Positions 5,504-24,743 of a DNA stretch of 64,000 nucleotides are shown piece by piece. Source of the stretch: Thiobacillus sp. 0-1251 (GTDB lineage: Bacteria > Pseudomonadota > Gammaproteobacteria > Burkholderiales > Thiobacillaceae); the NCBI GenBank assembly GCA_001899305.1, contig MKWL01000019.1, positions 124,001-188,000 of the forward strand. Direction: 5' to 3'. How positions within the stretch are numbered: the first letter of the stretch is position 1; every line of letters begins with the position of its first letter. Made by a program: the position numbers and the translations under genes. Under the pieces are notes generated by a model. The model had not been told where the DNA came from. It did no database searches and was given only the letters and a program-made list of their open reading frames with translations.

Positions 5504-5559
5504 GAATGTCTCCTTAATGCCGGGCCTCTCCGACACGGAATGGCCTGGTAGATCGATGG

Positions 5560-8165: not shown

Positions 8166-8452
8166 GTCGATTCCTTCCTATGCGCGGATGGGCGGGGGCT
8201 TGCCGTATTGGGCGCAAAACGACCCCCGTTGCCTGTCGCGGAGCGATCAGGCAATTGGTTTCAGTGACAGTTTTTGGTGCAGATTTGGACGCAAAACCGT
8301 CCCAGCGACCCAGAATCCTGGATCGAATGAGAGGAAGGGGGTTGACCGCAGAGATCGAATGAGCGATTCTTTTTATCAGCCGTTCAGTAGCTCACGCTAT
8401 TGATCTCTATCGCGGGGCCGCCCTCCTTGGGTGCGCCCCATTTTTATTTACG
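8166..8452. promoter_or_regulatory. Leader of the transposition operon with direct repeats
   Basis: This stretch between the XRE gene and tnsA has no convincing gene. Two related 15-mers, ATTGGGCGCAAAAC-like at 8206-8220 and ATTTGGACGCAAAAC at 8282-8296, lie in direct orientation 76 bp apart. An 11-mer GATCGAATGAG occurs at 8321-8331 and 8353-8363. The location suggests regulator or TnsB binding sites and a promoter for tnsA. No -10/-35 pair is assigned with confidence. Confidence 0.4.
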
Positions 8453-9274: not shown

Positions 9275-9769
9275 TTGAGTATCGATAAGGAAGAAGATTC
9301 AAGCGACTGGGGCGACGATGCTTACTTCTGCGAAACCTGCGGCAGGCCTTTCCGATACCCGCTATATGACACAGCAAAGGAGTTCGAGCGCACGATATTC
9401 CACACGGGCGACATCCTCCCGGAAGTCGAGATCATCGGATCTGAAGGAATCGGTCAGTACTGTTCTAGCTCGTGCAGAGACCAGGCCAGAAGAGGTTTGC
9501 TGCAACGGGAGGCCGTGCGTGTGACCTACCCTGGCATCGGTCCGATTGAATGTTGTTCCCGCTGTTCTGCACCCGTGGATATGACCAAGTTCCACTTGGC
9601 TTATGTGGAGTCAGTTATTGATGGCGAGTGGGATCGAATGAGCGTTAATGTCCGTGAGTCAGCAGTTGTGGCTATTTTGTGCAACGGATGTTCTGCGCCG
9701 CCAGACCGCTTGATTGCAGAAGTCGATTTTCCAGTTTCGGATCCCGCCTCTACCGGGCAGGTATCGTGA
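9275..9769 (+). CDS. Zinc-ribbon hypothetical protein
   Basis: A 164-residue protein with four Cys pairs: CETC near the start, YCSSSC in the middle, CSRC, and CNGC near the end. They probably fold as two zinc ribbons or treble clefs. The frame starts at TTG 9275, chosen because GAAAGGA ends 8 bases upstream and no ATG follows soon. It sits alone on the plus strand between the transposition module and the restriction operon, divergent from the XRE gene. No family is recognised. DNA, RNA or protein binding is possible. Confidence 0.6.
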   Translation: MSIDKEEDSSDWGDDAYFCETCGRPFRYPLYDTAKEFERTIFHTGDILPEVEIIGSEGIGQYCSSSCRDQARRGLLQREAVRVTYPGIGPIECCSRCSAPVDMTKFHLAYVESVIDGEWDRMSVNVRESAVVAILCNGCSAPPDRLIAEVDFPVSDPASTGQVS

Positions 9770-9931
9770 CGACTATGCTCGTGGCTGGTCAGATCATCAA
9801 TTCAATATGCGCTCCACCAGTCCATCAAGCTCTACCTCCCGGTCAATGAGCAAAGGCGCTTATCGGTCCGGCGAGATGATCGCTCCCGCCATATTAGGTA
9901 TTAAATGCAGCTTAAGGGCCGCATCAATGCG

Positions 9932-12900
9932 TTATCGGTTCTCCTGAAACGCGTCATACACAAGATCCAGCAGCATTGCCGCCATCGCCTTCTTGACGTG
10001 GCCTTTTCCCATAACCTGTTCTGACATCGATTTGTGGTTTTCGTAGGCCGCCATCACAGCGTCCTCGAAGGCGTTCATGAAGTCCGGACTGTCGCCGAAC
10101 TGGGCCTTCTGGTTGGCAGCGGCCTGCTGTGCCAGGATTTCTGACTCCATCATCTTGCCAGCGATGTGATTCACGTAGTTGATGCGGTCCGCATCCGTCA
10201 GCTCTTCCCCCTCGAAGAGGTCGTTCATCTTGCCAACGATCTCCGACAAGAGAGCCTGCCTGGGATCCTGCGGCAGGCGGCTGCCGATACCGGTCATCGG
10301 GTCGAGCGTGGTTGGTTCCTCCGTCGGCTCGGCGAGGCCCAACTTGCGCTTGCCCAGATCGCGCAGGTTGTAGTGGGTCATCAGTACCGAGGACAGGTCG
10401 ATGGCCTCGTGGCGGACCTCTTCAGCGATGAGCGGGGCGAGGTGCTTGTAGAAGAGGCTGCGCTTGAAGAGGTCCGAGTCACCGTAGTCGACGATCTGGG
10501 AGAGGAAGTCGTAGGCCCGCACGAAACCGCCCAGATCCTTCCTGAAGAGATCCAGAGCCTCGATGGCTTTCTTGTCCTTCTGCTGCTCGGCCTCCGTATA
10601 ACGCACACGGAAGCGTTCGACTGCGGGACCGATCCTGGCCTGCAGATCCTTCTGGGTGCCCTTCCTGTAGTAGGCCTCAGCGAACCCCTCCACCTCTTCC
10701 GGCAGGTAAATGCCTGTGGCATCGAGTTTGGCCTGCAGGTCATGGATCAGGTTGGGGTCCGACACGCCGGAGAGCTGCGCCGCGCGGAAGTAGGTGCGGA
10801 AGGCGGTCAGGATCTCGCCCGGGTCGTTCACGAAATCGAGCACGAAGGTGTCGGTTTTGCCGGGGTAGGTCCGATTGAGCCGCGAGAGCGTCTGCACAGC
10901 AGAGACGCCGGCGAGCTTCTTGTCGACGTACATCGCGACCAGCAGAGGTTGGTCGAAGCCAGTCTGGAATTTGTTGGCAACCAGCATGACCTGGTACTCG
11001 TCCGTGGCGAAGGCCTCGCGCATGTCCCGGCCATTGAGGCCCGGGTTCATGTTCGACTCGTTGAACGGGCTCGGGCCGCTCTCGGGGTCGTTCACGTCCC
11101 CGGAGAAGGCGACCAGGGTGGATACGTCCCTGTAGCCCTGCGCCTTGATGTACTTGTCCATGGCGAGCTTGTAGCGCACCGCCTCCTTCCGTGAGGAGGT
11201 CACGACCATGGCCTTGGCGCGGCCGTTCAGGCGCCACATCACATTGGCCCGGAAGTGCTCGACGATCACCTGGACCTTCTGGGCGATGTTGTGCGGGTGC
11301 AGACGCACCCAGTTCATCAGCGACTTCAGGGCCCGGTTCTGATCCACCTGCTCGTCGTCGTAGTCCTGGCCATCATGGGCCAGCTTGAAGGCGAGCTTGT
11401 AGGGGGTGTAGTTCTTCAGCACGTCGAGGATGAAGCCCTCCTCGATGGCCTGCTGCATGGAATAAACATGGAACGGGGCCGGCAGACCGTCAGGCCCGGG
11501 CCGGCCGAAGAGTTCGAGCGTCTTGGCCTTCGGTGTGGCGGTGAAGGCGAAGTAGCTGACTGTGTTGGGCTGCACCTGGCCGGCCATCTCGGCTTCGAGG
11601 ATTTCCTCCAGATCGACCTCGGCGCCGTCCTCGATCTCCGCCAGTCGTTCAGCCGTCAGCACCTGCTTGAGCTTCTTGGCGGCCGAGCCGGTCTGGGAGG
11701 TGTGCGCCTCGTCGGCGATCACAGCGAAGCGCCGGCCCTTGAGCGTGACTGTATCCCGGATGGCGTCGAGTACGAATGGGAAGGTCTGGATGGTGACGAT
11801 GATGATGGGCGCGCGGTCAGCAAGCGCCTTCACCAGTTGCGAGGACTTGGAGCCGCCTTCGTCGGTGATCCGCACAACCACGCCGTGCTTGTGCTCGAAC
11901 TGGTAGATCGCGTCCTGCAGCTGGGAGTCCAGCACCGTCCGGTCGGTGATGACAATGACCGAGTCGAAGAGCTTGGTGTCCGCCTCGTCATGCAGGGACG
12001 CCAGCTGGTGGGAGAGCCATGAGATGGAGTTGGTCTTGCCGGAGCCGGCGGAGTGCTGCACCAGGTACTTCATGCCCGGGCCTTCCGCCCGTGCGGTCGC
12101 CACGAGCTGGGTGACCGCTTCCCATTGGTGGAAGCGCGGGAAGATCAGTGCCTGCTTCTCCTGGACGCTGCCGTCCGGCAGGGTTTCCTGCTTCTTCTCC
12201 AGATGGACGAAGCGGCCGAGGATGTCGAGCCAGGCATCGCGGTCGAGCACGTGCTCCCAGAGATAGGACGTGCGGTAGCCGTCGGGGTTGGGCGGGTTGC
12301 CCTTGCCGCCGTCGTTGCCAAGGTTGAACGGCAGGAAACGGGTCTCCTTGCCATCCAGCTTTGTCGTCATCCACACCTCGTCGGTGGACACCGCGAAGTG
12401 CACCAGGGAGCGGCGCTTGAATGCCAGCAGGGGCTCCTCGCGCTTGGTGACCGGATCCTTCACTGGCCGGTCATGCCTGTACTGGTGGATGGCGTCCTTC
12501 ACGGACTGGGTGAAATCGGTCTTGAGTTCGAGGGTGGCGACGGGGATGCCGTTCACGAACACCACCAGGTCGATGCTGTTCTGGTTCGAAAGGCAGTAAT
12601 GCACCTGACGCATGACCCGCACGCGGACCTTGCCGTACCGCGCCAACGTCTCCGGGTTCATTTTCTGGGCCGGCTTGAACTGGCACATGTCGAACCGGGC
12701 GTTCACGTTCTTGAAGCCGTGGCGCAGCAATGAGAGCGAGCCGTCCTTGTCCATTAACTCGGCTAGGCGCTTCAGCAGCATTTTCTCGCTCGAGTCGTTG
12801 TGCACCGCCTTCACCTTCGCCCATTCATTGGGTTGGGTCTCCGACAGCCAGGCGATCACGTCCTCCGGGAAGAGTGCCAGCTCACGGTCGTAGCCGCTGT

Positions 12901-12985
12901 CATCGGGCGAGCAGAGCCAGCCGTGGGCGGCGAGGTGGCCGCAGATTTCCTGCTCGAAGTGAATTTCGGTATGGAGGGCGGTCAT
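9932..12985 (-). CDS. hsdR: Type I restriction enzyme R subunit
   Basis: A protein of about 1017 residues. The N-terminal nuclease domain has the PD-(D/E)XK core VFVNGIPVATLELKT. The SF2 translocase follows, with Walker A in HSAGSGKTNS and a DEAH box in IADEAHTSQTG, and a helical C-terminus that would dock on HsdM. The ATG at 12985 is chosen: it lies 2 bases after the preceding gene's stop and begins MTALHTEIHFEQ, whereas the open frame extends 29 unconvincing codons upstream. With HsdM and HsdS it would cleave unmodified foreign DNA after ATP-driven translocation. It is the last gene of the operon. Confidence 0.93.
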   Translation of the reverse strand: MTALHTEIHFEQEICGHLAAHGWLCSPDDSGYDRELALFPEDVIAWLSETQPNEWAKVKAVHNDSSEKMLLKRLAELMDKDGSLSLLRHGFKNVNARFDMCQFKPAQKMNPETLARYGKVRVRVMRQVHYCLSNQNSIDLVVFVNGIPVATLELKTDFTQSVKDAIHQYRHDRPVKDPVTKREEPLLAFKRRSLVHFAVSTDEVWMTTKLDGKETRFLPFNLGNDGGKGNPPNPDGYRTSYLWEHVLDRDAWLDILGRFVHLEKKQETLPDGSVQEKQALIFPRFHQWEAVTQLVATARAEGPGMKYLVQHSAGSGKTNSISWLSHQLASLHDEADTKLFDSVIVITDRTVLDSQLQDAIYQFEHKHGVVVRITDEGGSKSSQLVKALADRAPIIIVTIQTFPFVLDAIRDTVTLKGRRFAVIADEAHTSQTGSAAKKLKQVLTAERLAEIEDGAEVDLEEILEAEMAGQVQPNTVSYFAFTATPKAKTLELFGRPGPDGLPAPFHVYSMQQAIEEGFILDVLKNYTPYKLAFKLAHDGQDYDDEQVDQNRALKSLMNWVRLHPHNIAQKVQVIVEHFRANVMWRLNGRAKAMVVTSSRKEAVRYKLAMDKYIKAQGYRDVSTLVAFSGDVNDPESGPSPFNESNMNPGLNGRDMREAFATDEYQVMLVANKFQTGFDQPLLVAMYVDKKLAGVSAVQTLSRLNRTYPGKTDTFVLDFVNDPGEILTAFRTYFRAAQLSGVSDPNLIHDLQAKLDATGIYLPEEVEGFAEAYYRKGTQKDLQARIGPAVERFRVRYTEAEQQKDKKAIEALDLFRKDLGGFVRAYDFLSQIVDYGDSDLFKRSLFYKHLAPLIAEEVRHEAIDLSSVLMTHYNLRDLGKRKLGLAEPTEEPTTLDPMTGIGSRLPQDPRQALLSEIVGKMNDLFEGEELTDADRINYVNHIAGKMMESEILAQQAAANQKAQFGDSPDFMNAFEDAVMAAYENHKSMSEQVMGKGHVKKAMAAMLLDLVYDAFQENR

Positions 12986-12987
12986 GG

Positions 12988-13341
12988 TCAAACCGATCTG
13001 ATTCCGGTGATCCCAGCCACGAATATCTGGTCGCCCGTATCGAACATCCCTACGATAATCGAACCGGCGCACGCCTTCGACGTGTCATGGGCATCAGCGA
13101 ACGATTGAAACATGAGCGCCGCCTCGGGAGTCGTGGCCCAGGCTTTGCGGGTGGCGTGATGGGACTCATCGAAGGCGGCCAGAAATTCGTCTGATTTTTC
13201 CAGATGGACGCCATAGCCAAGAAATGTTGCATCCTGGGACAGCCCATACTCCTTCTTGACGTCATTGATGGACATCTCTCGAAGGCCGAGCGCTTTGGCG
13301 ATTCGCACGTCTCTGTCCCCGCGTAGCTTTGCCTGTCCCAA
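12988..13341 (-). CDS. Small hypothetical protein upstream of hsdR
   Basis: A 117-residue protein beginning MGQAKLRGDRD, a start seen in many uncharacterised small proteobacterial proteins. The C-terminal part is rich in Ala and Gly (VGMFDTGDQIFVAGITG). There is no signal peptide or membrane segment. Its stop codon is two bases before the hsdR start, so it is probably co-translated with hsdR. Its function is unknown. Modulation of restriction or anti-anti-restriction would be speculation from position. Confidence 0.65.
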   Translation of the reverse strand: MGQAKLRGDRDVRIAKALGLREMSINDVKKEYGLSQDATFLGYGVHLEKSDEFLAAFDESHHATRKAWATTPEAALMFQSFADAHDTSKACAGSIIVGMFDTGDQIFVAGITGIRSV

Positions 13342-13472
13342 TGTGCCCTCCTTGCGTTCAAAGTTGTATGTTTATTCTGAAATAACGCGCGTTACACAGC
13401 CCCGCGAACATCAGGCCGTGTAGCTAGCGGTTCCTTGTTTCTCGTTATTGCCCCCATCGTTTGGCATCAACG

Positions 13473-14732
13473 CTATTTTTTGAGCAAGGGAGACAGGGCA
13501 TCAACAATTTCATTGGGCTTCAACTTATCCAGTGCCTTCTCCACGAGTTCATGCACCGGGGAAGCAGCGTCGCCGCGCTTCAGGAGCATCTTCGCCGGAT
13601 TGGCTCCAAAACTTCTGATCGCAGACTCCTGAAGCAACTTCAGCATCTCCGGATCGGCGCCCATCTCGTTTCGGTAACCGGCAAAGGCCATTGAGGCCGC
13701 CTCCTTGAAGGCATAGTCCTCGCTCACACGAAGCACATTTCCATACTGACGAGCTGCAAACCAGGAAAACCAAACTAGCGGGCTGGCCACCAAAAATCGG
13801 ACGGCTACTGCCACGGGGTCAGGACTGCCAGCCTTCAGCAGCGGTAGCAACTCTGCCAAACCAATCCAAAGCAAACCCACAATGCCAATTACAAATGCGC
13901 CAGCCCATATCATCCAGGTTCTCTCCAGCTCCTTGCGTTTATCGCGGAAAGATCGCGCCAGGCCCACCTTGTTCGCATTCTCCAGAAGGCCAGCAATCTC
14001 ATCACGCCGATCTTCGAACTCCTTGAGCAGCGCATCTTTTGAGGCAACCGAGGCCGCCAGCTCCTGGGCCATTTTGGCAACCGAGGATGACTCCGTTGTT
14101 GCAGTAGATGCAGCGCTTTCCGCATTGGTTTTGGCAGTACCAGCCTCACGTTCATAACCCTGGATTGTTGCGAGAAGCACTTGAACAGCCTGTGAGGTCT
14201 CGCTTGCCTTGTTCTGTTGATCCTGGATTTGTGTGAGCAAGGCGATTGCACTTTCCTCGGTCTGCTGGATGGAAGCCTTGATATCCTCGGCTCTTGTAAA
14301 CCACAGCTGAGCCTCCTCAATTTTGGCCGTCATGGTCCGCTCGAAGTCAGGCGACAACCTTGCAGATTCAGGGTGGATCGGAATTAGTTGAAGCAGTGAG
14401 CTTCTGAGAGTCCACAACCAGCTACAGATGTTCTGGACATTTGCGAGCACCTGAGCCGGGTTGTTCCAATTAGCGCTGAAGAACTGGGACATGGCGTTCG
14501 GGACAGATTCGAAGTTGCCCCTGTACTGGCTCCAGATGACACCATCTATATTCTTCGAACGGTCAAACGCCTTGAATAGGGCAATAACCTCTTCGAATGA
14601 TCTCGAGATGTCGGCCACATCGACCCCGATGCCTTGTAGGTTTTCCTGGGGGGACAGAGTGGGTGCCGCCTGATCCCACTGTCTCTTTGCAGTCTCAACC
14701 TGAGTGATGGCATTAGAAATATCAATGCGCAT
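13473..14732 (-). CDS. Membrane-anchored coiled-coil protein in the hsd operon
   Basis: A 419-residue protein. Residues 1-130 are helical, and about 135-270 is a long Ala/Glu/Gln-rich coiled coil. Two hydrophobic segments at about 273-299 and 309-328 would anchor it as a hairpin, and about 330-419 is a soluble tail. It begins 12 bp after the hsdS stop and is followed by a 131 bp gap before the next gene. It has no recognised catalytic motif. Membrane coiled-coil proteins in type I restriction loci suggest an accessory defence role, for example sensing or anchoring, but no function is established here. Confidence 0.75.
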   Translation of the reverse strand: MRIDISNAITQVETAKRQWDQAAPTLSPQENLQGIGVDVADISRSFEEVIALFKAFDRSKNIDGVIWSQYRGNFESVPNAMSQFFSANWNNPAQVLANVQNICSWLWTLRSSLLQLIPIHPESARLSPDFERTMTAKIEEAQLWFTRAEDIKASIQQTEESAIALLTQIQDQQNKASETSQAVQVLLATIQGYEREAGTAKTNAESAASTATTESSSVAKMAQELAASVASKDALLKEFEDRRDEIAGLLENANKVGLARSFRDKRKELERTWMIWAGAFVIGIVGLLWIGLAELLPLLKAGSPDPVAVAVRFLVASPLVWFSWFAARQYGNVLRVSEDYAFKEAASMAFAGYRNEMGADPEMLKLLQESAIRSFGANPAKMLLKRGDAASPVHELVEKALDKLKPNEIVDALSPLLKK

Positions 14733-14744
14733 GGCATTTCTCGC

Positions 14745-16067
14745 TTATGTTGTTTGAAGTTCAGACTCTTCAGCTTTGATATTCGCGAATTCTCGTACAT
14801 CGATCTTTCCCGTCACAGCCGACGAGACCAGCGCGGTGCGGTGCCCACGCATCAGTTCGATGCACTGGCAGGATTTTTCGATAAGGCAGTCCAATTTAAA
14901 GGTCTCATAGTCCAAGTAATTGATCAATCTACCTTGCTCATCAACAGGTGGTACCGGAATCCTAAAATTTGCTAACGCCCCAAGATATATTCCTGGTTGG
15001 GCAGAAAACCCTACGTTTTCCCAAAGCAGTTGCTGGAAGGAACCAGACTCAAAAACCCTGTGCAAAAATTTGAAATGTTCCAAGTGATTTGGACGAAAGA
15101 TTGCAAGGCTTCTTTGAATATGAAATTGGCCTAGGCGTGGAGGAACTACGGCAGTTTTGCCGAGTGTGGCTCCGACTATCGCCAGCAGAACATCGTTTGG
15201 CTGCGGAACAAACGAACGGCACAATTCGAGGAAATCCTCATGCGAAATCATCGAATCGTCGTCTAGCAAGCTAAAAACGCCATCCTGGATATTCCTTACG
15301 CTCAACAAAGGCACACCATCATCAACCCGTTGCGGTGGAAGATGTGTTCCATCTTTGAGAAGTGTGCAGACGTGTTTTATCGCCATGACATCCCAATGCG
15401 CCGGCACCTCCCCCAGCCACTCCACACCCGAATCCTTCATCGGCGCATCCGGGTTCAGCCCCTTGGTCACCGCATGGGAGATGAGCGCCTGGCGTTTTTC
15501 CTGAAGCAGTTCGATCAGCCTTTCCTGCTTGGCGATTAGGGTATCGAGTTTGGCAGTTTCGTGGTCGAGGAAGGCAGCGATGGTGGTTTGTTCAGCCGGC
15601 GAAGGCACAAGGAACGCCATATTCCCCATGAACTCCCAGCCGACCCTGGGCATCTTGGCCCCGAAGGTGGAGCTATCCGCGATGGCAATAAAATCTCGGT
15701 TCAGGATTTGATATTGAGCGAACCGGCCAGCGGTCGACTTTTCTGGCCGCAGCACGTGGAAATCACCAACCGCCTCCCCGTTGGCTTGCGCAAGATATGC
15801 CTTTGCGAGGTATGGCCGTAACTTACCAAACAGAATGTCACCGGGTACAAAGGCAACACCCTCTCCCTCGAACTCAGACGCAGTTTCTATGAACCGACCT
15901 GACCATCCCTCGATGTTTTCCAAGGCGACTGGGTGGCCGCGTCTGCTGGTTTTATCTGTCATCAAATTCAGACAATGTTTGAGGCGTCGCACATCCCAAT
16001 GTTCCGGCACCTCTCCCAGCCACTCCACCCCCGAATCCTTGTATGTCGGGTACGGCTTGTACCTCAC
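14745..16067 (-). CDS. hsdS: Type I restriction enzyme specificity subunit
   Basis: A 440-residue protein with two target-recognition halves. Each half opens with the same motif ([16 protein letters not shown] at about residues 10 and 211), and each ends in a long helical spacer (about 160-195 and 400-425). The repeated lead-ins reflect the internal symmetry expected of an HsdS that recognises a bipartite DNA site. It overlaps hsdM by four bases (ATGA). Specificity cannot be read from the sequence by eye. Confidence 0.92.
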
Positions 16068-17794
16068 GCCGTCACCTCCTTAAGCAGATCCATGATCTCG
16101 GCTGACAGCGCTTTCAGTTCGGTGTCGATCTCCTCCAGCGGCCGGGGCGGCACGTACTTGTAAAAGAGCCGGTTGAACGGGATCTCGTAGCCGACTTTGG
16201 TCTTGTCGTGGTCGATCCAGGCGTCCGGCACATGAGGCAGGACCTCGCGCTCGAAGTAGGCTTGGATATCGTCCTTCAGGGGCACGTTCTCGGTGTCGCG
16301 CAGCGATGAGTCGGGTTGAGGCTGGCCTTTCTGCTTGCCCTTGCTGCCAAGGACGACATTGCCGTGCTCGTCGCACAAGGGACGCTCGACGGTGATGGTG
16401 GAATAGCCAAAGTCGGCGTTGTCGAAGATCTTGCTGTGCTCGCTCTCTTCGAACTCGCCGTAGAGCTTCACGATGCGCTCGATATCGAGCACGCCCAGTT
16501 CCTTGCGCTTGGAGCCCAAGGACTTGCGCATTTTCTGGTAGAACTCGGCCGCGTTGATGAGCTGAATCTTGCCCTGGCGCTCCGGCCGCTTGTGATTGGT
16601 AACGATCCAGACGTAGGTCGAGATGCCGGTGTTGTAGAACATATCCGTCGGCAAGGCGACGATGGTCTCCAGCCAGTCGTTCTCGATGATCCACTTGCGG
16701 ATCTCCGACTCGCCCGAGCCGGCACCGCCGGTGAAGAGGGGCGAACCGTTCAGCACGATGCCGATGCGGCTGCCGCCTTCGGCTTTGGGCCGCATCTTCG
16801 AGATGAGGTGCAGCAGGAACAGCAGGCTGCCGTCCGACACCCGCGGCAGGCCCGGGCCGAAGCGTCCCTCGTAGCCCTTCTTCGTGTACTCGTCACGGAT
16901 GGATTTCTCGATCTTCTTCCATTCCACGCCGAAGGGCGGATTGGAGAGCATGTAGTCGAAGCGCTTGCCGATCAGGCCGTCGTCGGAGAGCGTATTGCCG
17001 TAGATGACGTTGGAAATGTCCTGGCCCTTGATAAGCATGTCCGCCTTGCAGATGGCGTAGGACTCGGGATTCAGTTCCTGGCCAAAGACCACCAGGCGGG
17101 CCATGGGGTTGAGGCGGTGCAGGTGTTCTTCCGCCACCGACAGCATGCCGCCGGTACCTGCAGTGGGGTCGTAGAGGGCCCGCACCACGCCCGGCTGGGT
17201 CAGAGCCTCGTCGTCGCCGGCGAACAGGAACTCCACCATGAGCCGGATGACCTCGCGCGGGGTGAAGTGCTCGCCGGCCGTTTCATTCGAGAGTTCGGCG
17301 AACTTGCGGATCAGCTCCTCGAACATCGCGCCCATATGGGCATTGCTCACCAAGTTGGGATGCAGGTCGATCGCCGCAAATTTCTTGGCCACCAGGAAAA
17401 GCAGGTTGTCCTGGTCGAGCCGGTCGATGAGCGGCTGGAAGTTGAACCGCTCGAACACGTCCCGGACGTTGTCCGAGAACGAGCCGATGTAGTTCGTGAG
17501 GTTGGCACGGACGTTGGCCGAGTCGCCCAGCAACGTCGTGAAGGTCATGGGGGAAGTGTTGTAGAACTGGTAACCGGCCTTCTTGACCAGGAAGCGGTCC
17601 AGAGCCGCGGCCGGCATGTCCTTCTTGGTCTGGTGTTCCTTGAGGACGGCGGGTTTGGTGGTCTCCAGCACGCAATCTAGACGCCGCAGGATCGTAAACG
17701 GAAGGATCACCCGGCCATATTCGGATTGCCTGAAGTTCCCCCTGAGCAGGTCCGCCACTGACCAAATCAGGGATGAGGTGGCGTTTGTGTTCAT
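16064..17794 (-). CDS. hsdM: Type I restriction-modification methyltransferase subunit
   Basis: A 576-residue N6-adenine methyltransferase. The N-terminal helical HsdM domain spans about 1-150. The AdoMet-binding motif is DPTAGTGG and the catalytic motif is NPPFG. It is the first gene of the operon hsdM-hsdS-membrane protein-small protein-hsdR. The 273 bp upstream (17795-18067), before the ImmA gene, hold no other convincing gene and must contain the promoter. It would protect host DNA and, with HsdS, form the core complex that HsdR joins. Confidence 0.94.
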
Positions 17795-18067
17795 AGTCTC
17801 TCTTGTTATTTATTCAGGCTCGTCAATTTTACAGATGCAAGCCAACAACCCGCTTCAGGCGGACGGTTCTGATAACCCTGGCTGGAGGTTTCAAATTGAA
17901 ATTCCGCTTTGGCCAACCAATGACTGGCCCAGACCAACCACCCCATCGGCAGTTTCTCGGCTGAAGGGGACGTCCATCAATTGCTGATGGCGGTCGTTCG
18001 AGATGTTCCAATCAGTTATGTTTCCTGGGTACTTACCCGCACTTTCGAGTGCTTGTAACGATAGCTA

Positions 18068-18994
18068 CTAAGTGGCAATGGTGCCGCGCGAGACACTGAT
18101 CTGAACCGGAAGCTGGCGTAGAAATCGTGCTAACGTGAGGACGCTATATTTAATGCTGAAGCTTTCGATTCCGAAGACATTCGATGTTCCGTTCGCATCC
18201 CGCAATACAATCTCCGAGGAGCCAAGCGGACCTGTTTGCCTATAGGAGCAGTAGGTTGGAAGCCATTCCCAAATTTCGGACTCTGTCACATGGGGAAACT
18301 GTCGCTCGAACAACTTCGAGCTGACGAAATACTCTATCGGCAACTTTCCTTCACGCATGTAGTGAGGATGTTCGCTGATGGACGCAAACGTGACTTCGTC
18401 GCTTTGCTCAACGCATCTCCACAGCGTGCTTGTAATAGTATTACCGAAGTGTTTGGCGATCTCACGGACTTGTGCCAGCGAATTCACGCCTGAAAGCCTG
18501 GCCTCGGAGAACGCTCGGTGCGGAAATAAGAGTCGCCCGGCTCCATAGTTCGCCTCAGCTTCAATCGCTTCATGACTCGCCTGGGACAGCGTTGTCCGAT
18601 CGTCGCCAAGCATATAGTCGTTATGCCAAGGAATAAGGCTGTGCGCCACCTCATGTGACTCATACCAGCGTTTCTTTAGGTCGGGGACGCTGCTGTCGAT
18701 AAGGATGCGCTTGCGATCTGGAATGAAGAGAGCATTCAGGTCGAACCTGCGAACAGCCTCAAGCAGCAATGCGGGGCGCTCAATGACTTGTTTTGCGCCA
18801 ATCTTCAGTTTGTGCACTACTTCGCCAAGAAGATTAGGGTCGTCGGCGCGGTAATAGTGGAGGTCTAAACGAAGCAAGTCGCGTACTTGAGGCAATTCTA
18901 TCTTCCCACCCGAATAGCTTAGATCTCGGTGCACGCGATCAATGCGTTGATCTATATCCTTCGCAGCCCTTGCATCTATGTGGACGTTCTTCAC
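18068..18994 (-). CDS. ImmA/IrrE-family metallopeptidase
   Basis: A 308-residue protein with the zinc-peptidase motif HEVAH (His114, Glu115, His118). A downstream EAEANYGAGRLLFP segment (Glu145/Glu147) supplies the usual third ligand region of ImmA/IrrE proteins. Family members cleave or otherwise inactivate a partner XRE repressor, switching on defence, phage or stress genes. The partner is probably the XRE protein encoded immediately upstream: the stop TAG and this gene's GTG start share one base (TAGTG). It is the last gene of the CopG-GNAT-XRE-ImmA operon, which is divergent from the ubiquitin-like operon. Confidence 0.88.
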   Translation of the reverse strand: MKNVHIDARAAKDIDQRIDRVHRDLSYSGGKIELPQVRDLLRLDLHYYRADDPNLLGEVVHKLKIGAKQVIERPALLLEAVRRFDLNALFIPDRKRILIDSSVPDLKKRWYESHEVAHSLIPWHNDYMLGDDRTTLSQASHEAIEAEANYGAGRLLFPHRAFSEARLSGVNSLAQVREIAKHFGNTITSTLWRCVEQSDEVTFASISEHPHYMREGKLPIEYFVSSKLFERQFPHVTESEIWEWLPTYCSYRQTGPLGSSEIVLRDANGTSNVFGIESFSIKYSVLTLARFLRQLPVQISVSRGTIAT

Positions 18995-19482
18995 TAATCA
19001 CCCGATGGTTTGGACAAGACTTCAACAAGAGCGCGAATCGCTTCGTACTCTTCATTGGATATTGTTTCGGCGCCATTGGAACTAGCCGCGTACCTCACCG
19101 AGCTCTCGTTTGCTGCTAATTGGGAACGATGACCCGCTAATCGGATGAATCGTGCGCGTGAGAAGCCGCAAACATCGGCGAGTTGTGTCACTGTCCTCGG
19201 CTTTGGGTCATAGGCGGAGCATGTCTCAATCGCCTCCAAATCAGTCTCATCAATATCGGCCAACTCAGCAAGCTCAGTTCTTGTCCAGCCATTGTGCTCA
19301 CGGACATAGCGTACTGCCTTGCCAAGTTCCGTTGGGACGCTGGCCAGCACCGAAGGGGTAACAGCTCTTTGCTCCACGTCCTTCTTGAACTGCTCAAGCG
19401 GTGTGCCGCCGGCCCCAACATTGGTGTCTCCACAGAGAGCGAGCTTTTCTTCTAGCCACTCCCGAGTAATCTCGAATTTCAT
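18994..19482 (-). CDS. XRE-family regulator, probable ImmA partner
   Basis: A 162-residue protein. A helix-turn-helix is visible at about 70-125 (VREHNGWTRTELAELADID, then a recognition helix DLEAIE), flanked by an N-terminal segment of about 55 residues with no assignment. It overlaps the upstream GNAT gene by four bases (ATGA) and the downstream ImmA gene by one. The XRE-ImmA pairing is a classic repressor/protease switch. The position of the pair suggests that it controls, or is controlled through, the neighbouring ubiquitin-like operon. Confidence 0.8.
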   Translation of the reverse strand: MKFEITREWLEEKLALCGDTNVGAGGTPLEQFKKDVEQRAVTPSVLASVPTELGKAVRYVREHNGWTRTELAELADIDETDLEAIETCSAYDPKPRTVTQLADVCGFSRARFIRLAGHRSQLAANESSVRYAASSNGAETISNEEYEAIRALVEVLSKPSGD

Positions 19483-20102
19483 GGCTTTCTCCTATTGATG
19501 AACGCATCCGCAGCCTCGGGGGTGAGTTCGTAGTACTTCAAGTTCTCCTTATCAGGGTCCTTGCCCAAGCATGCGAACCCGTGGCATTCGTAGAAGCTCT
19601 CCGCTTGCGGAAGTGCATGCAGCCCGACGCGGCCCTTGAACTCCGCCTCAATGCTAACTTGAACCGCTGCCCGCATTAACAGAGTCCCAATCCCGCTAAA
19701 CCGGGGCCGATCGACGACTCCCCGAAGGTTCCAGGGTGCACTGGCTAAGTACGTCACATATACGAGCGGCCTGCCGGCCTCATTGGGGAGATTAGCAAAG
19801 TGCCCATCCGTCTTCAGCAACATCAATCCTTGTGGCTCACCTTCGCACTCGATAGCAAGCGTCGGACAAGACAGAAGACGAGACGAGCCCGCGACCTTGG
19901 CGAGCCAGGACCAATGGGCATGTTCGAGTCGAGCGAAAGGTCGGCCCTCAGCATTTGCCCGAGCCTCCGCCGCCGCCAGATACGTCAACCAGATATCGTC
20001 TACACGGAGGGCGTAAGCACTATCAATTCGCTCGTGCAGTATGGCTTCTACAAATTCGCCGGTTACGTTGTTGAGTAGTGGGATTCGGTGGCTTGAATTC
20101 AC
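19479..20102 (-). CDS. GNAT-family N-acetyltransferase
   Basis: A 207-residue protein resembling GCN5-related acetyltransferases. A beta-strand VYVTYLASAPWN precedes a GIGTLLMRAAVQVSIE segment (acetyl-CoA-binding loop and helix), and LHALPQAESFYECHGF is typical of the last GNAT motif. Its GTG start overlaps the CopG stop (GTGA), and its stop overlaps the XRE start. Toxin-type GNATs paired with ribbon-helix-helix antitoxins are known, and a CopG-type gene lies directly upstream, so a TacAT-like toxin-antitoxin reading is possible. At 207 residues it is larger than those toxins (about 160-175). The substrate is unknown. Confidence 0.78.
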   Translation of the reverse strand: MNSSHRIPLLNNVTGEFVEAILHERIDSAYALRVDDIWLTYLAAAEARANAEGRPFARLEHAHWSWLAKVAGSSRLLSCPTLAIECEGEPQGLMLLKTDGHFANLPNEAGRPLVYVTYLASAPWNLRGVVDRPRFSGIGTLLMRAAVQVSIEAEFKGRVGLHALPQAESFYECHGFACLGKDPDKENLKYYELTPEAADAFINRRKP

Positions 20103-20311
20103 AAGACGACAAGCTCCTTCTTCTCCTTTGCGATCTCGTCTTCGAAGAACAACTTTTCTCCACCCCTTAGGCGCGCGTTCACCAACTGGTAAAGGCGTAG
20201 CGCCTGACGGAGTAGCGCGGTTTTGCTCATGTCTTTTTCAACACAGAGCTCTTCCAGCGCATTCATTTCCGCTTCTGTTAGGTTCAGCGTCATCGTTTTC
20301 TTGGTACTCAT
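20099..20311 (-). CDS. Ribbon-helix-helix (CopG-type) regulator
   Basis: A 70-residue protein with an N-terminal basic strand (KKTMTLNLTEAEMNALEELC) and two helices, matching the ribbon-helix-helix fold of CopG/Arc DNA-binding proteins. The charged C-terminus could bind a partner. It is the first gene of the minus-strand operon and overlaps the GNAT gene by four bases. Two dyads lie in the 126 bp between it and the divergent ubiquitin-like operon, so it probably represses both directions. An antitoxin role against the GNAT is an alternative. Confidence 0.8.
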   Translation of the reverse strand: MSTKKTMTLNLTEAEMNALEELCVEKDMSKTALLRQALRLYQLVNARLRGGEKLFFEDEIAKEKKELVVL

Positions 20312-20355
20312 GTTGGTGCCAGTTCTCCATCTATTTTTGGATAGTAGATTGTTTG

Positions 20356-20404
20356 GCTAATTTACACAACAAAATATGCTTGTAATTTAGCTAACAGTTA
20401 GCTA
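20356..20404. promoter_or_regulatory. Two overlapping dyads between divergent operons
   Basis: TAGCTAAC-A-GTTAGCTA at 20388-20404 is a perfect 17 bp palindrome. A wider dyad pairs GCTAATTTACA (20356-20366) with TGTAATTTAGC (20381-20391) with one mismatch, sharing the GCTAA-type half-site. They lie 34-82 bp upstream of the modifier gene and 45-93 bp upstream of the CopG-type gene, where an operator for both would be expected. Binding by the ribbon-helix-helix protein is inferred. Confidence 0.6.
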
Positions 20405-20437
20405 TTATTCGATTATCGCAACTGCCAAGGGGCAACC

Positions 20438-20695
20438 ATGACTACCCAAGAATCCGCGAACGTACATCGAGTCATTCCAATCTTTATCGATGACGTGAAG
20501 TACGAATTGTCGGGCGCCAAAGCCTCAGGCGCCCAACTGCGCGCTGTCGTTCCAGTGCCTGCCGACCGCGATCTTTGGCTTGATGTACACGGCCCGAAGG
20601 ACGACATCCTTATTCGGCCGGAACAGGAGTACGAAGTGACTCCCGGTTCTCACTTCTATACCGCACCAAGCACCATAAATCCGGGAGCGCGATGA
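20438..20695 (+). CDS. Multiubiquitin-type ubiquitin-like modifier (single domain)
   Basis: An 85-residue beta-grasp protein. The GAQLRAVVPVPADRDLWLDV core, the HFYTAPSTINPG ending and the overall length match one repeat of the bacterial multiubiquitin domain. The tail is NPGAR, so two residues follow the usual NPG end and may need removal before activation. AAGGGGC precedes the ATG by a few bases. It is the first of three tightly packed genes, with one base separating it from the E2-like gene. It would be activated by the E1-JAB protein and attached to a target or lipid that is not known here. Confidence 0.85.
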   Translation: MTTQESANVHRVIPIFIDDVKYELSGAKASGAQLRAVVPVPADRDLWLDVHGPKDDILIRPEQEYEVTPGSHFYTAPSTINPGAR

Positions 20696-20696
20696 A

Positions 20697-21086
20697 ATGG
20701 ACCTGCCGGCTCGCGACGTCAAATTCCTCAACGAGCGAGGGCTCGATTGGCAACTGGTCCCCGACCCGAAGGGTGCGGCATGCGTACTAGTAAAAGGGTT
20801 CGACGTCGCCGGCGGTGGGTTCAGCCCCGCGGCAACGGATCTAATGATTCGAATTCCACAACAGTACCCAATGACGCCTCTCGACATGTGGTATTGCGAC
20901 CCGCCAGTTCGTCTTGCCTCAACGGGTCAATTCGCCACCGCATCGGAGGTGATTGAGACACATTTGGGGCGGCAGTGGCAACGGTTCTCGCGCCATCTCA
21001 ATGGTGGCTGGCGGCCCGGGCTGGACGGTATGCGGTCGTTCTTCGTATTAATACAGCGCGAACTTCAAGGGATTGGTAAGAGCTAA
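20697..21086 (+). CDS. Prokaryotic E2-like conjugating protein
   Basis: A 129-residue protein matching the prokaryotic E2 family E outline: a beta-meander with YPMTPLDMWYCDPPVRL, then WQRFSRH at 94-100 and WRPG at 105-108. The classical E2 active-site Cys neighbourhood is absent. A lone Cys67 lies in the strand before DPP, and the strongly conserved-looking residues are Ser98, Arg99 and His100. The gene starts one base after the modifier gene and overlaps the E1-JAB gene by one base (TAATG). Transfer through a non-thioester intermediate is possible and would have to be tested. Confidence 0.85.
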   Translation: MDLPARDVKFLNERGLDWQLVPDPKGAACVLVKGFDVAGGGFSPAATDLMIRIPQQYPMTPLDMWYCDPPVRLASTGQFATASEVIETHLGRQWQRFSRHLNGGWRPGLDGMRSFFVLIQRELQGIGKS

Positions 21087-22450
21087 TGGCTGCCAAGATC
21101 ATTCTGCTGGAGCGCCAACTCCATGCATTGCGCAAACTATTGTTCGACCGCCCCGGTGTTGAAGGTGCGGCTTTCTTACTATGCGGTGAGTCACGCACGG
21201 ATCACGCCTTTAAGCTCATCGTCCATGCGGTCGTGCCCATCGCGAGTGAAGACTTCCTTCGCCGCGAGGCCGACGGGCTGAGCATCTCATCCGCCGCGCT
21301 TACGCGTATTGCGAAACTGGCCAGATATGAAGGTCTCAGCATTATCTTTGCCCATTCCCATCCCCAAGGTGTTCCAGAATTCTCCGACCAAGATGACCGA
21401 GAAGAAGAGCGGTTGCTGCCTTTCCTTCAGGCTCGGGTACCCGGCCGCGCACATGGGACGCTGGTGCTGTCAGAGGAAGACATCAGGGGCCGGTTATATG
21501 TGCCTGAGCGGGTTCCCGCAAACGCGATTACAGTCGTCGGCCAGGCCTTCCGCAGTTGGTCGCCGCACACGGTTAGTATGGCCGCACCATTTTTTGATCG
21601 TCAGGTTCGTGCGTTTGGCCCGGATATCCAAGGGTTGCTCACGCGATTGCACGTAGGGATCGTTGGTCTCGGCGGCACAGGGTCGCCACTCGCGGAACAA
21701 TTGTGTCGACTTGGCGTAGGCCACCTCTCGTTATTTGACGGCGATCGGTTAGACGTGACAAATGTTAATCGGGTATATGGATCGACGGTCGGCGACGCCG
21801 GCCGCTTCAAAGTCGAGATTGCCAAGGAACATCTCGACAAGATCGGGCTGGGCACATTGATAGACGTGTATCCTGAACACATTACAGTGGAAGAAACGGC
21901 ACGTGCTGTTCGCGATTGCGACGTGATCTTCGGATGCACAGATAAGGAATTGCCACGTGCGATTCTTATTCAGTTGGCATTGCGATACTGCATTCCGGTT
22001 TTTGACCTCGGTGTGCTGATTGACTCGCGCGATGGAAAGATATCGGGCGTGCACGGTCGAGTGACGACGTTGCTTCCTGGAGAAGCGTGCCTGTTCTGTC
22101 GAGGTCGAATTTCAGCGGAGACTATTCGGGTTGAGGCTTTGTCGGACGAGGACCGGCAGGGCCAAGCACGAGATGGTTATGCACCAGAGCTAGAAGAGCC
22201 GGCGCCAGCGGTAATTTCCTTCACAAGCGCTACTGCTAGCGCTGCCGTGTCTGAACTACTGCATCGCCTAACAGGCTTCATGGGTGCTGAGCGACAATCA
22301 TCTGAGGTGCTGATCTCCTTTGACCAAACCCGGGTCCGAACTAATCGCATCGATCCGAGGGAGCATTGCGTTTGCGGTGATGAGTCGCTATGGGGCCGTG
22401 GAGATACTTACCCATTTCTCGACATGGTATGGGCTACTCGCACCATATGA
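21086..22450 (+). CDS. E1-JAB fusion: ThiF-type activating domain with JAMM peptidase
   Basis: A 454-residue fusion. The N-terminal JAB/Mov34 domain (about 1-160) carries the JAMM zinc motif HSHP with Ser100 and Asp103 (His90, His92; Glu26 as candidate acid). The ThiF/E1 domain (about 165-440) has the nucleotide loop GIVGLGGTGS (191-200), FDGDRLDVTNVNRV for ATP and adenylate contacts, and Cys pairs CLFC and HCVC for structural zinc. One polypeptide could therefore trim the modifier tail or deconjugate it, and also adenylate it. It is the last gene of the plus-strand operon, and its 3' end overlaps the convergent DUF6527 gene by 17 bp. Confidence 0.92.
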   Translation: MAAKIILLERQLHALRKLLFDRPGVEGAAFLLCGESRTDHAFKLIVHAVVPIASEDFLRREADGLSISSAALTRIAKLARYEGLSIIFAHSHPQGVPEFSDQDDREEERLLPFLQARVPGRAHGTLVLSEEDIRGRLYVPERVPANAITVVGQAFRSWSPHTVSMAAPFFDRQVRAFGPDIQGLLTRLHVGIVGLGGTGSPLAEQLCRLGVGHLSLFDGDRLDVTNVNRVYGSTVGDAGRFKVEIAKEHLDKIGLGTLIDVYPEHITVEETARAVRDCDVIFGCTDKELPRAILIQLALRYCIPVFDLGVLIDSRDGKISGVHGRVTTLLPGEACLFCRGRISAETIRVEALSDEDRQGQARDGYAPELEEPAPAVISFTSATASAAVSELLHRLTGFMGAERQSSEVLISFDQTRVRTNRIDPREHCVCGDESLWGRGDTYPFLDMVWATRTI

Positions 22451-22805
22451 CACGTCCGTCGCGCAACCAGAAGTGTGCTCCGCAGGTAGTTGAATCCACC
22501 GAAGGATGCACTGTAAACAAGTTCCTAGATCGCACCTCCACGCGCCACCGCGGCGAGTGGCTCCGCATCATATTCAGCGCAATCTGCTGCTTACACCCGC
22601 AAGGACAGGTAAAGAGCATCCATTTATATCCATGTCCACCGCGCACTAAAGCGGCCACACCGGTCCGCTTTGCTGCCATGGAAGCAGCGGCTCGGTCATC
22701 AAATATCTCGACTACATACCGCTGCTCTTGGCGCAGTGGTTGCCCGCGGACAGCAGTTCCAAACCCGAGGAGCTGAGCCAAGCTTTGCAGTAGTTGACCA
22801 ATCAT
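22434..22805 (-). CDS. DUF6527-family protein, convergent with the E1-JAB gene
   Basis: A 123-residue protein with the DUF6527 pattern: TCPCGC (67-71), a basic central strand, PSVDSTTCGAHFW (Cys108, His111) and a terminal GRVIWCE (Cys122). The Cys/His set implies a zinc site. The family recurs next to bacterial multiubiquitin-E2-E1 operons, and it sits here tail to tail with the E1-JAB gene, with a 17 bp overlap of the coding ends. Its biochemical role is not evident. A ligase-like, protease-like or reader role could be imagined. The exact start is uncertain. Confidence 0.75.
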   Translation of the reverse strand: MIGQLLQSLAQLLGFGTAVRGQPLRQEQRYVVEIFDDRAAASMAAKRTGVAALVRGGHGYKWMLFTCPCGCKQQIALNMMRSHSPRWRVEVRSRNLFTVHPSVDSTTCGAHFWLRDGRVIWCE

Positions 22806-23338
22806 TGAGGTGTGGGCCTTTAATCATTAGGTAAAGCGACGGCATAAACCGTCGGCTCCGACGACATCTGCGTACTACAAGTCTTATCGTGCCACGCCAG
22901 TGCGATGAGCATGCAACATGCGGATCTCTGTGCATTTCGTAATGGCTAATCGATATGCAATAGGCTCCAAGGTAGTAATTGGCAAGCCCCCCACACGGTC
23001 TTGCGCCCAGTTTGGAAAATTCAGAGAAGCCGACAATGGCCAACAATTTACCGCCGTCCGCTTGGCCGACTTTGAGACATTCAAGCCAAGTATGGTGGCT
23101 GGGTGGTTTGCGCTTCCGGCCGGTTGCAGTCCTCCACCGCCTGTATTGCCCGTGAGGAGGCATTTCGCGATCTATGAGAATAAATTTTCAGCCCAACGCG
23201 AAAAATGATCATGAAATGAGAAAACCTACAACACAGCAGGCAGGTTCGCGGAGCGAGTTGATTAAAAATTGATCGGATGTTCAATTTTGTCGTCGATGAA
23301 ATTTGACAGGGGCTGCGTGCACCCTGAAAATTGCGGTC
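22806..23338. other. Gene-poor junction between island and core
   Basis: These 533 bp contain overlapping open frames on both strands (for example 22918-23208 plus and part of 22699-23163 minus), but none has a recognisable family or a good ribosome-binding site. A short palindrome, CGTCGG-CT-CCGACG, lies at 22850-22863 upstream of the DUF6527 gene. The biotin-operon side from about 23,160 is AT-rich. This is the likely right boundary region of the accessory island. No tRNA and no clear attachment repeat was found. Confidence 0.45.
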
Positions 23339-23797
23339 ATGAAAGCCAAACGCGTCATTCCAGCTTCATCTTCCCGCTTCGCCGCGCAGCTGTTCAATTT
23401 CATCACCGTCGTGGTGTTGCTGATTTCGCTGACGGCGCTACTGCTGGGCAAGTTGCTTGCCGGCCACAAGATCGGTTTCCTGCCGTTCGTGCTGTCGTTA
23501 CCGCCGGTCATGATCTGGCTGGGCGCGTCGATTTTCGTCTATGCCAGTATCGCGCACCATCCGAATCCGCGCACGACGCATTACAACAAATGGGCAGGTT
23601 ACCGCTATTACGGCGTAATGGGCAGTCTGGTGGTGTTCGGCCAGCCGCTCTACGGCCTGCTGGGGGGCTGGCAGGGGCTGATGCTGGTGCAGGGAGTCGC
23701 GGTGGTGGTGATCGTGCCGTGGGCGTTGTTTGACATTTACCGGGCCGCGCGTGAGCCGTGGCAGGACATGACCATCGAGGTAGCCATCAATGAATGA
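23339..23797 (+). CDS. Conserved membrane protein upstream of bioB
   Basis: A 152-residue protein with four hydrophobic segments (about 15-37, 42-65, 85-105 and 108-130) and a conserved-looking [20 protein letters not shown] loop. It is probably an inner-membrane protein. The ATG at 23339 is preferred; a TTG at 23303 is in frame. It overlaps bioB by eight bases, so it is the first gene of the biotin operon. The function is unknown, and co-expression with biotin synthesis is inferred from the overlap. Confidence 0.75.
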
Positions 23798-24743
23798 CAT
23801 GACTCAACCGCCTGCGCGCCTATCCATGGCAGACATCGAGGCGCTGTTTGCCTTGCCGTTTGCCGACCTGATGTATCGGGCGCAAACGGTGCATCGTGGA
23901 AACTTCGACCCCAATCGCGTGCAGTTGTCGACGCTACTATCGATCAAGACCGGCGGCTGTTCCGAGGATTGCGGCTATTGTCCGCAATCGGCACGTTACG
24001 ACGCCGGCGTGGAAAACCAGGGTCTGCTCGATCTCGACGACGTGCTGTCCGCCGCCAGGGCCGCCAAGGCCGCCGGCGCATCGCGCTTCTGCATGGGCGC
24101 GGCTTGGCGTGGCCCCAAGCAGCGCGACCTCGAACCCGTGCTGGACATGGTACGCGAAGTGAAGGCGCTGGGGCTGGAGACCTGCGCCACGCTGGGCATG
24201 CTGAAGGACGGCCAGGCCGAGCAGTTGAAGGAGGCCGGCCTCGACTACTACAACCACAACCTCGACACTGCGCCCGAGTTCTACGGCGAGATCATCACCA
24301 CCCGCGAATACCAGGATCGCCTCGACACGCTGGAGCGCGTGCGCCATGCCGACCTGCATGTCTGCTGCGGCGGCATCGTCGGCATGGGCGAGTCGCGCAC
24401 CCAGCGCGCAGGCCTAATCGCGCAGCTGGCCTCGCTCGATCCGCAGCCCGAATCGGTGCCGATCAACCTGCTGGTCCAGGTCGAAGGCACGCCGCTGGCC
24501 GGCACCGAAGCGCTCGAACCGTTGGAGTTCGTCCGCACGATCGCGGTGGCGCGCATTTCCATGCCGAAGAGCTTCGTGCGCCTGTCGGCCGGTCGCCAGC
24601 AGATGAGCGACGCCGTGCAGGCGCTGTGCTTCCTCGCCGGGGCCAATTCGATCTTCTACGGTGAAAAGCTGCTCACCACCGGCAACCCCGAGTGGGAACG
24701 CGATCAGCGCCTGTTCGATTCGCTGGGCCTGCAGCCGTTGTGA
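23790..24743 (+). CDS. bioB: Biotin synthase
   Basis: A 317-residue radical-SAM enzyme that inserts sulfur into dethiobiotin, the last step of biotin synthesis. The radical-SAM cluster motif is Cys57-x3-Cys61-x2-Cys64 (CSEDCGYC), followed by the TIM-barrel signatures YNHNLDT and GGIVGMGE and by [11 protein letters not shown]. The length is normal. Its TGA overlaps the GTG start of bioF. Confidence 0.97.

Follow-up and report, generated by a model that had tools for sequence, protein, structure and literature searches.

The 64,000-nucleotide stretch of Thiobacillus sp. 0-1251 DNA analysed here (contig MKWL01000019.1, positions 124,001 to 188,000; the window) carries four overlapping minus-strand genes for a CopG-type ribbon-helix-helix (RHH) protein, a GNAT acetyltransferase, an XRE protein and an ImmA/IrrE-type metallopeptidase, placed head-to-head with a plus-strand operon for ubiquitin-like (Ubl) conjugation. 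Comparisons with plasmids and other genomes showed that this quartet is one conserved unit and that its neighbourhood is no accident. The quartet belongs, as a four-gene variant, to the known plug-in immune controllers, and its candidate operator, a phased array of TAGCTA sites, is well defined. The two operons are genuinely paired, most plausibly because they are regulated together, and such pairing is not confined to ubiquitin-like conjugation. We consider it likely that CopG-GNAT-XRE-ImmA is a compound plug-in controller: CopG would repress the immune operon opposite, and an IrrE/CapP-like protease would relieve the repression.

The distribution of the cassette was determined by tblastn searches of 72,556 plasmid records with the window proteins as queries. 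CopG returned 19 records and XRE 16, every one of them within those 19. ImmA returned 30 records and GNAT 51; the additional ImmA records hold more distant relatives, as do the remaining GNAT records, which are largely cyanobacterial among the best 40 of the 51. The 19 CopG records correspond to 17 loci, one record being used from each of two same-name pairs (two of Novosphingobium sp. KA1 and two of Methylocystis bryophila, the members of a pair being uncompared). Together with the window and the loci of genomes G352 (L037), G792 (L047) and G1139 (L117), they make up the 21 CopG loci discussed below. GNAT, XRE and ImmA follow CopG in the same order and on the same strand in 16 of the 17 plasmid loci, and the order recurs in G352 and G792, which bears out the sequence-only reading that the four minus-strand genes form one unit. 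The 16 include three loci with an irregular ImmA gene (L026, L030 and L035). ImmA lies partly in another frame at L026 and L035, and in L030 (Gemmobacter aquarius plasmid, 8120-12116) it is interrupted by a stretch with sul2 and an IS1380-like transposase. The remaining plasmid locus, L111 (Rhizobium sp. CB3060), has CopG alone, with GNAT, XRE and ImmA unmatched at E<=1e-3 in 12.2 kb. Identities to the window proteins are 32-44% for GNAT and 36-45% for ImmA.

The cassette is rare and scattered. Among the genomes of 149 relatives, a strong GNAT match was present in the strain's own genome only, and a GNAT profile (E<=1e-10) matched 3 of 398 genomes of the phylum and 2 of 385 genomes of the class of G792. 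The genomes recovered by this profile hold the full cassette (G000, the window's own genome, and G792), a decayed one (G1139) or GNAT in another context (G844); the cassette of G352 was reached via its E2. In the decayed copy (L117, 3647-5500), CopG and XRE are whole, GNAT lacks its middle, ImmA is reduced to an N-terminal piece, and the array is kept. No GNAT or ImmA relative was found in the viral contigs covered by pattern-based scans and no GNAT relative in phage records, and the cassette is absent at the two cyanobacterial plasmid GNAT relatives examined (L024 and L036).

The 126-bp gap between the CopG and Ubl genes (20312-20437) contains two TAGCTA sites 11 bp apart (20388-20393 and 20399-20404), and a third, degenerate site, TGGCTA (TAGCCA on the minus strand), lies at 20354-20359, 34 bp from the next and about one base off the 11-bp phase. 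With a pair defined as two TAGCTA sites of at most one mismatch each, the exact 11-bp pair is present in 19 of the 21 CopG-partner gaps (16 of 18 without three near-copies). Sites at other distances of up to 33 bp are spaced 22 bp in 11 gaps, 33 bp in 7 gaps, and 7, 18 and 29 bp in one gap each. The other 63 six-base palindromes form an 11-bp pair in at most 3 of the 21 gaps. Exact TAGCTA is present in 20 of the 21 gaps, with 40 copies in all. Among the first 17 gaps (the totals of 17, 20 and 21 differ as loci were added progressively), 15 had the pair; after dinucleotide shuffling (500 rounds) it was present on average in 0.10, and at most in 2, of the 17. The pair was found in none of 17 control stretches, taken from 15 loci at places lacking the cassette; these stretches are mixed in kind and length and include some flanks that are not clean gaps. 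As to gap definition, the L027 gap is 444 bp long with a small annotated open reading frame, the L025 gap depends on the assumed CopG start, and 300 bp upstream of CopG were taken for L035 and L117. The two exceptions are L035, with sites 33 bp apart and insertion sequences upstream, and L034, with TGGCCC and TGGCCA 22 bp apart. The N-terminal strand of the L034 CopG reads TLILS, in comparison with T(L/I)NL(T/S) in the other 13 sequences of a 14-sequence alignment. Within the 3.66-Mb genome, the pattern TAGCTA-N4-6-TAGCTA occurs once, inside this gap. Of 11 further genomes or records searched, 8 have exact pairs, which by their coordinates lie in the cassette gap only.

The array coincides with predicted promoters. 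In the window, the predicted promoter of the Ubl operon (TTGTAA-17-TATTAT, plus strand, 20380-20408, a consensus match only) has one TAGCTA inside its spacer and the second spanning the spacer and the -10. Automatic calling of -35 and -10 elements was inconsistent over the gaps, so only a fixed geometry on the partner strand, TTGNN[TAGCTA]N5[TAGCTA], was counted. This geometry, in which the sites occupy the spacer expected after a -35, was found in 12 of 20 gaps and in none of 13 controls (loci from the control set above; at most two mismatches per site). L034 retains a TTGACT-17-TATATA promoter together with a variant site of its own. In 17 of 20 gaps, the CopG strand has its best promoter match after the array, 19-30 bp before CopG (TTGACA, TTGACT, TTGACG or TTGAAC). 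The proposal of the sequence-only reading that the shared gap is a common control region is supported by the repeat array covering the predicted promoter of the conjugation operon.

Several observations weigh against the array as the operator of this controller. A backwards control pattern occurs four times per strand in the strain's own genome and 0-3 times per strand in the others, so single sites of such a kind do arise by chance. Phased TAGCTA triples were present in 50 viral-contig stretches in which profiles matched no cassette gene, and the scan was rejected as a cassette finder on this ground. The fixed TTG-array geometry is missing from 8 of the 20 gaps, the window included, where the TTG stands three bases farther off. 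The -10 varies and was not demanded in that count. The promoters are consensus matches, with the best automatic promoter elsewhere in several gaps, and no CopG promoter was found after the array in the window. The covariation of the CopG strand with the site in L034 is a single case.

Comparisons of the operons beside the cassette showed that a Ubl-type operon of one of three architectures (15 loci) or a CBASS (cyclic-oligonucleotide-based antiphage signalling system) operon (3 loci) adjoins 18 of the 21 CopG loci. Ten have a multiUbl/Prok-E2_E/E1-JAB operon (the window, L021, L022, L031, L032, L033, L037, L109, L110 and L035). The window operon type, with DUF6527, probably belongs to the Bub class (Gong 2025; Ye 2026). 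The Ubl and E2_E assignments were checked with Pfam at L021, L022, L031 and L033 and follow annotation at the other plasmid loci. Three loci have a multiUbl/DUF6791-ThiF/DUF6527 operon (L027, L047 and L111), and two have a Bil-like operon with a separate JAB and a BilD-type E1; of these, L025 contains Multi_ubiq and L034 has CEHH, BilC and BilD matches and no recognised Ubl. The three CBASS partners have a cyclase, HORMA, an AAA ATPase and SAVED, with PADLOC matches for cyclase, HORMA, TRIP13 and SAVED effector in L023, matches for cyclase and HORMA in L026, and matches for SMODS, HORMA and AAA in L028; their remaining genes were assigned by record annotation. The partners of the other three loci are DUF2188 genes (L029 and L030) and an AcrB-type resistance-nodulation-division (RND) efflux operon (L117). 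At 17 of the 21 loci the cassette stands head-to-head with a Ubl, Bil-like or CBASS operon, and at the 18th (L035) it adjoins the Ubl operon on its other side. A point against the cassette as a controller of immune operons is L117, where the decayed cassette, with CopG, XRE and array retained, faces the efflux operon (HlyD, AcrB-type).

In a tree of the four concatenated cassette proteins from 19 of the 21 loci, the CBASS-facing cassettes form one clade (ultrafast bootstrap 100) nested among the Ubl-facing cassettes (97 and 100); the DUF6791-type L027 stands beside an E2_E-type cassette (100), and the E2_E-type L037 groups with the Bil-like loci (91). This indicates that the cassette swapped partners several times. 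The cassette is a mobile, partner-changing unit and is not specific to ubiquitin-like systems. The sequence-only reading had raised an acetylation step linked to ubiquitin-like conjugation, in which GNAT would acetylate the ubiquitin-like protein, the E2 or targets. Its conserved acetyl-CoA loop and its conserved position opposite Ubl operons would fit such a role. However, the same cassette, with the same GNAT family, also faces CBASS operons without a Ubl gene (L023, L026 and L028) and DUF2188 genes, so a dedicated link is unsupported and we regard this explanation as very improbable.

Accidental island neighbourhood was to be concluded, according to the sequence-only reading, if the four genes were rarely found with this conjugation set in other genomes. 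Seen from the conjugation side this is so: seven of nine sampled Prok-E2_E loci lack the quartet. The position of the window locus next to type I restriction-modification genes would also fit an accident. Seen from the cassette side it is not: E1 relatives (at least 80% query coverage) occur in only 116 of the 72,556 plasmid records, and yet 18 of the 21 CopG loci lie beside a Ubl or CBASS operon; the operator, too, is shared. The latter observations contradict an accidental pairing, which is hardly credible any longer.

Some partner regions have further features. L035 (Jiella pelagia plasmid, 6603-12893) has a multiubiquitin operon with its own HTH (helix-turn-helix)-ImmA pair opposite and the quartet behind, so that two controllers adjoin; the insertion sequences lie upstream of the quartet. 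In L026 (Methylocystis bryophila plasmid, 7631-24588), the cassette stands opposite CBASS, and about 10 kb off a multiubiquitin operon stands opposite DUF6290 and Fic genes. DUF2188 genes face the cassette in L029 (6425-6646) and L030 (6409-6636), and one lies between HTH-ImmA and multiubiquitin in L051 (4097-4321). YegP homologues follow CapKS (PMC13373217), and DUF2188 near these controllers perhaps parallels that arrangement. In L029 (Marinibacterium plasmid pLA6_010), a 1000-residue Cas9-like protein with an HNH domain is encoded directly after the cassette (9304-12306).

CopG probably does the DNA binding, since the array is absent without CopG, is kept with CopG alone, and the recognition helix of XRE is acidic. 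The array is absent at the examined HTH+ImmA loci without CopG; among them is L057, which has the nearest relatives of the cassette XRE and ImmA encountered apart from CopG. The array is present at L111, where only CopG persists. In all 20 cassette XREs compared, a fixed position of the recognition helix is occupied by D or E; the mean net charge over eight helix residues is -2.1 in 17 of them vs. +0.1 in nine other HTHs. We assume that the 11-base spacing, about one helical turn, would suit cooperative RHH dimers such as those of Arc and similar repressors. The same observations (for the array, 0 of the 17 control stretches, L057 among them) count against a plain CapH/CapP arrangement, in which XRE would repress via the TAGCTA array, ImmA would cleave XRE, and CopG and GNAT would be riders without a control role. 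XRE+ImmA beside Bub and CBASS operons is a published arrangement (PMC13373217), and a peptidase switch beside ubiquitin-like conjugation is not the unusual feature that the sequence-only reading saw in it. The HTH fold of XRE is retained (PF13560), XRE matches the PADLOC capH model at 1e-4, and ImmA is CapP-like. A CapH/CapP mechanism without a role for CopG is nevertheless unlikely in our view. Three observations weigh against CopG as the reader of the array: L117 retains XRE alongside CopG; L057, which has no CopG, is also acidic at the helix position (one of the nine other HTHs); and the net charge of the whole HTH overlaps (-4 to +5 in cassette XREs vs. +1 to +6 in others). A further point against the compound controller is that the XRE matches to PADLOC and NCBIfam models are weak.

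ImmA resembles the known repressor-cleaving proteases. It matches PADLOC capP at 1.1e-12, and by profile IrrE (3dte) at 3e-6 and CapP (7t5t) at 6.5e-4; H114, E115 and H118 of the HEXXH motif and the EAEAN motif are invariant in 10 sequences. PprI and CapP cleave repressors upon activation by single-stranded DNA (PMC10904395), from which a DNA-damage input is the natural inference, and by this analogy ImmA is probably activated by single-stranded DNA. In GNAT, residues G137, G139 and Y171 are invariant in 13 sequences; with the G-x-G loop and the tyrosine kept, GNAT is probably an active acetyltransferase. A profile search found no PDB relative of GNAT at E<=1, and AlphaFold2 prediction of GNAT alone without an alignment gave a pLDDT of 32.

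A toxin-antitoxin-like role is the default for CopG-GNAT, given the listing of GNAT-RHH, GNAT-Xre and COG2856-Xre pairs as toxin-antitoxin-like by Makarova 2009 (PMC2701414) and the context of a GNAT relative in L048. In L048 (G844, 5037-7618), a relative of the cassette GNAT precedes homologues of PD-Lambda-2 B (the peptidase part) and C, replacing the HigB-like toxin found at that position in published PD-Lambda-2 (PMC9519451). Taken further, CopG-GNAT and XRE-ImmA would both be toxin-antitoxin modules that stabilise or guard the island, and the array would serve ordinary autoregulation. Kopfmann et al. 2016 (PMC4963859) interpreted the XRE-COG2856 pairs by multiubiquitin cassettes in this way. 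The plasmid that holds L027, pCAR3, is among those with COG2856 operons, with the gene unspecified (PMC2701414), and the C-terminal tail of CopG is conserved in the alignment. However, addiction alone predicts neither that the loci face a Ubl or CBASS operon head-to-head (17 of 21) nor that an array lies at the partner promoter (12 of 20), L111 retains CopG without GNAT, and CopG has no DUF1778 match. Addiction as the whole explanation is thus improbable.

The compound controller that we favour would work as follows. CopG dimers would occupy the phased TAGCTA sites, one at each turn of the helix, and so hold off the operon opposite, whose predicted promoter the array overlies. In most relatives the array also adjoins the predicted promoter of the cassette itself, so CopG would limit its own synthesis. 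XRE and ImmA would form a CapH/CapP-like sensor, in which activated ImmA cleaves XRE and repression is lifted. XRE, which has probably lost direct DNA reading, would act as a partner protein for CopG or for GNAT. The most likely role of GNAT is in a toxin-antitoxin-like complex with CopG, tuning operator binding or enforcing retention. A more elaborate relay is a long shot: XRE would sequester GNAT, damage or phage DNA would cause ImmA to cleave XRE, and the freed GNAT would acetylate the lysines of the CopG motif KKTMTLNL, releasing CopG from the array and derepressing the immune operon. These lysines are conserved and lie next to the DNA-reading strand of CopG.

The quartet is one of several interchangeable controllers of such operons. 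Samples of two classes, with 369 and 385 genomes, contain nine Prok-E2_E loci above the cut-off. Two of these have the quartet (G000 and G352), three have HTH+ImmA alone (G326, G222 and G975), one has an HTH alone (G507) and three have neither (G190, G451 and G939); the profiles were built from the cassette, so that distant HTH or ImmA genes may escape them, and G190 and G939 are close to contig ends. Among eight plasmid Ubl operons picked for absence of the cassette (L050-L057), the genes opposite or upstream are HTH+ImmA (L051, L053 and L054), an XRE-M78 fusion (L055), an RHH+Fic pair (L050, a CopG-Fic pair opposite the multiubiquitin operon) or no such gene (L056). L057 (2145-4145) and L052 (2048-3785) have a possibly sigma-factor-like gene, followed by an XRE-like gene (L057) or a gene for an acidic protein (L052) and then ImmA. 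The sigma-like gene has a sub-threshold Sigma70_r2 match in L057 and no Pfam match in L052, and the arrangement is perhaps a further controller type. A scan of genome contigs with the single E1-JAB sequence found just two distant archaeal loci. The view of interchangeable controllers agrees with the published counts for 544 Bub operons, of which 219 have CapW or CapH+CapP and 59 have CapK+CapS (PMC13373217).

The eight genes of the locus lie in the window between a type I restriction-modification set and a cluster that looks biotin-type, in the 3.66-Mb genome G000, and the gene positions in the sequence-only reading hold at the coordinates checked by open reading frames and domain profiles. 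On the minus strand, the CopG gene (20099-20311; 70 residues) scores 21.1 with PF01402 against a cut-off of 20.5, and the GNAT gene (19479-20102; 207 residues, a divergent family) scores 24.1 bits with PF13673 against 23.6. The XRE gene (18994-19482; 162 residues, PF13560) encodes an N-terminal segment common to cassette XREs, the HTH and a C-terminal helix, and the ImmA/IrrE (M78) gene (18068-18994; 308 residues) scores 31.2 bits with PF06114 and has the motif HEVAH. Each start in the quartet overlaps the preceding stop (GTGA, ATGA and TAGTG on the minus strand); these overlaps and the 126-bp gap, both reported earlier, were confirmed in the sequence. The plus-strand operon begins with the ubiquitin-like modifier (20438-20695), which scores 18.4 bits with PF14452, below the cut-off of 24.5, and is backed by its position. 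It is followed by the E2-like Prok-E2_E gene (20697-21086; PF14462, 1.2e-40) and the JAB peptidase-E1 (ThiF) fusion (21086-22450; PF14464 and PF00899). HSHP..SDQD and GLGGTG are both readable in the fusion and are presumably its metal motif and nucleotide loop. The DUF6527 gene (22434-22805, minus strand; PF20137, 7.4e-20) is inverted, converging with the E1 gene, and is on the same strand as E1 in the relatives showing both genes (annotated plasmid and genome loci). All four members of the ubiquitin-like conjugation set recognised in the sequence-only reading are present together, except that the modifier is a single 85-residue domain and not a multi-domain chain. The flanks contain hsdS (14745-16067) and hsdM (16064-17794) on one side and genes for a BioB-like radical-SAM/BATS protein (from 23790) and an aminotransferase (from 24692) on the other. 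A 419-residue protein downstream of the type I restriction genes (13473-14732) has just weak PADLOC LmuB/JetC matches.

Comparisons with known systems place the quartet near several of them. As in CapH+CapP, an HTH gene precedes an M78 peptidase gene beside immune operons, Bub operons among them (PMC13373217). The quartet differs in having CopG and GNAT in front, in the TAGCTA array, which the examined two-gene loci lack, and in the extra N-terminal segment and acidic recognition helix of its XRE. CapK+CapS and CapW are likewise small exchangeable control units, and they stand at promoters of various operons, CBASS, Bil and Bub among them (PMC13373217); the kinase, STAS and WYL domains are unmatched in the cassette by Pfam. 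The CopG-GNAT half resembles the DUF1778-GNAT type II toxin-antitoxin systems (PMC9177977) in the overlap of the RHH and GNAT genes and the conserved RHH tail. However, the window CopG is above the cut-off for PF01402 only, with no DUF1778 match at E<=0.1, GNAT has no PDB relative by profile at E<=1, and the pair occurs together with XRE-ImmA and beside an immune operon. PprI(IrrE)-DdrO of Deinococcus has an M78 protease of similar length that cleaves its repressor (PMC10904395), whereas the cassette includes CopG and GNAT and would act locally, on the single operon opposite. XRE-COG2856 pairs occupy the same neighbourhood, at 70% of the multiubiquitin genes then in Pfam (PMC4963859), and CopG and GNAT are unmentioned in the excerpts of that paper. 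The Bil operon has a separate JAB (BilC), a BilD-type E1 and a CEHH E2, in contrast to the JAB-E1 fusion and Prok-E2_E of the window. Among the papers found on CopG/RHH or GNAT together with CapH/CapP, CBASS, ImmA or multiubiquitin, subscription papers excepted, no title or abstract beginning names the CopG-GNAT-XRE-ImmA cassette.

Opposite known or suspected phage-defence operons, the cassette looks like a device for holding costly immunity genes silent as long as there is no need for them. If CopG rather than XRE binds the DNA, the protease must work via a protein partner, and a purpose has to be found for the acetyltransferase. Its presence also marks the ubiquitin-like and Bil-like operons beside the cassette as probably inducible stress or phage responses.

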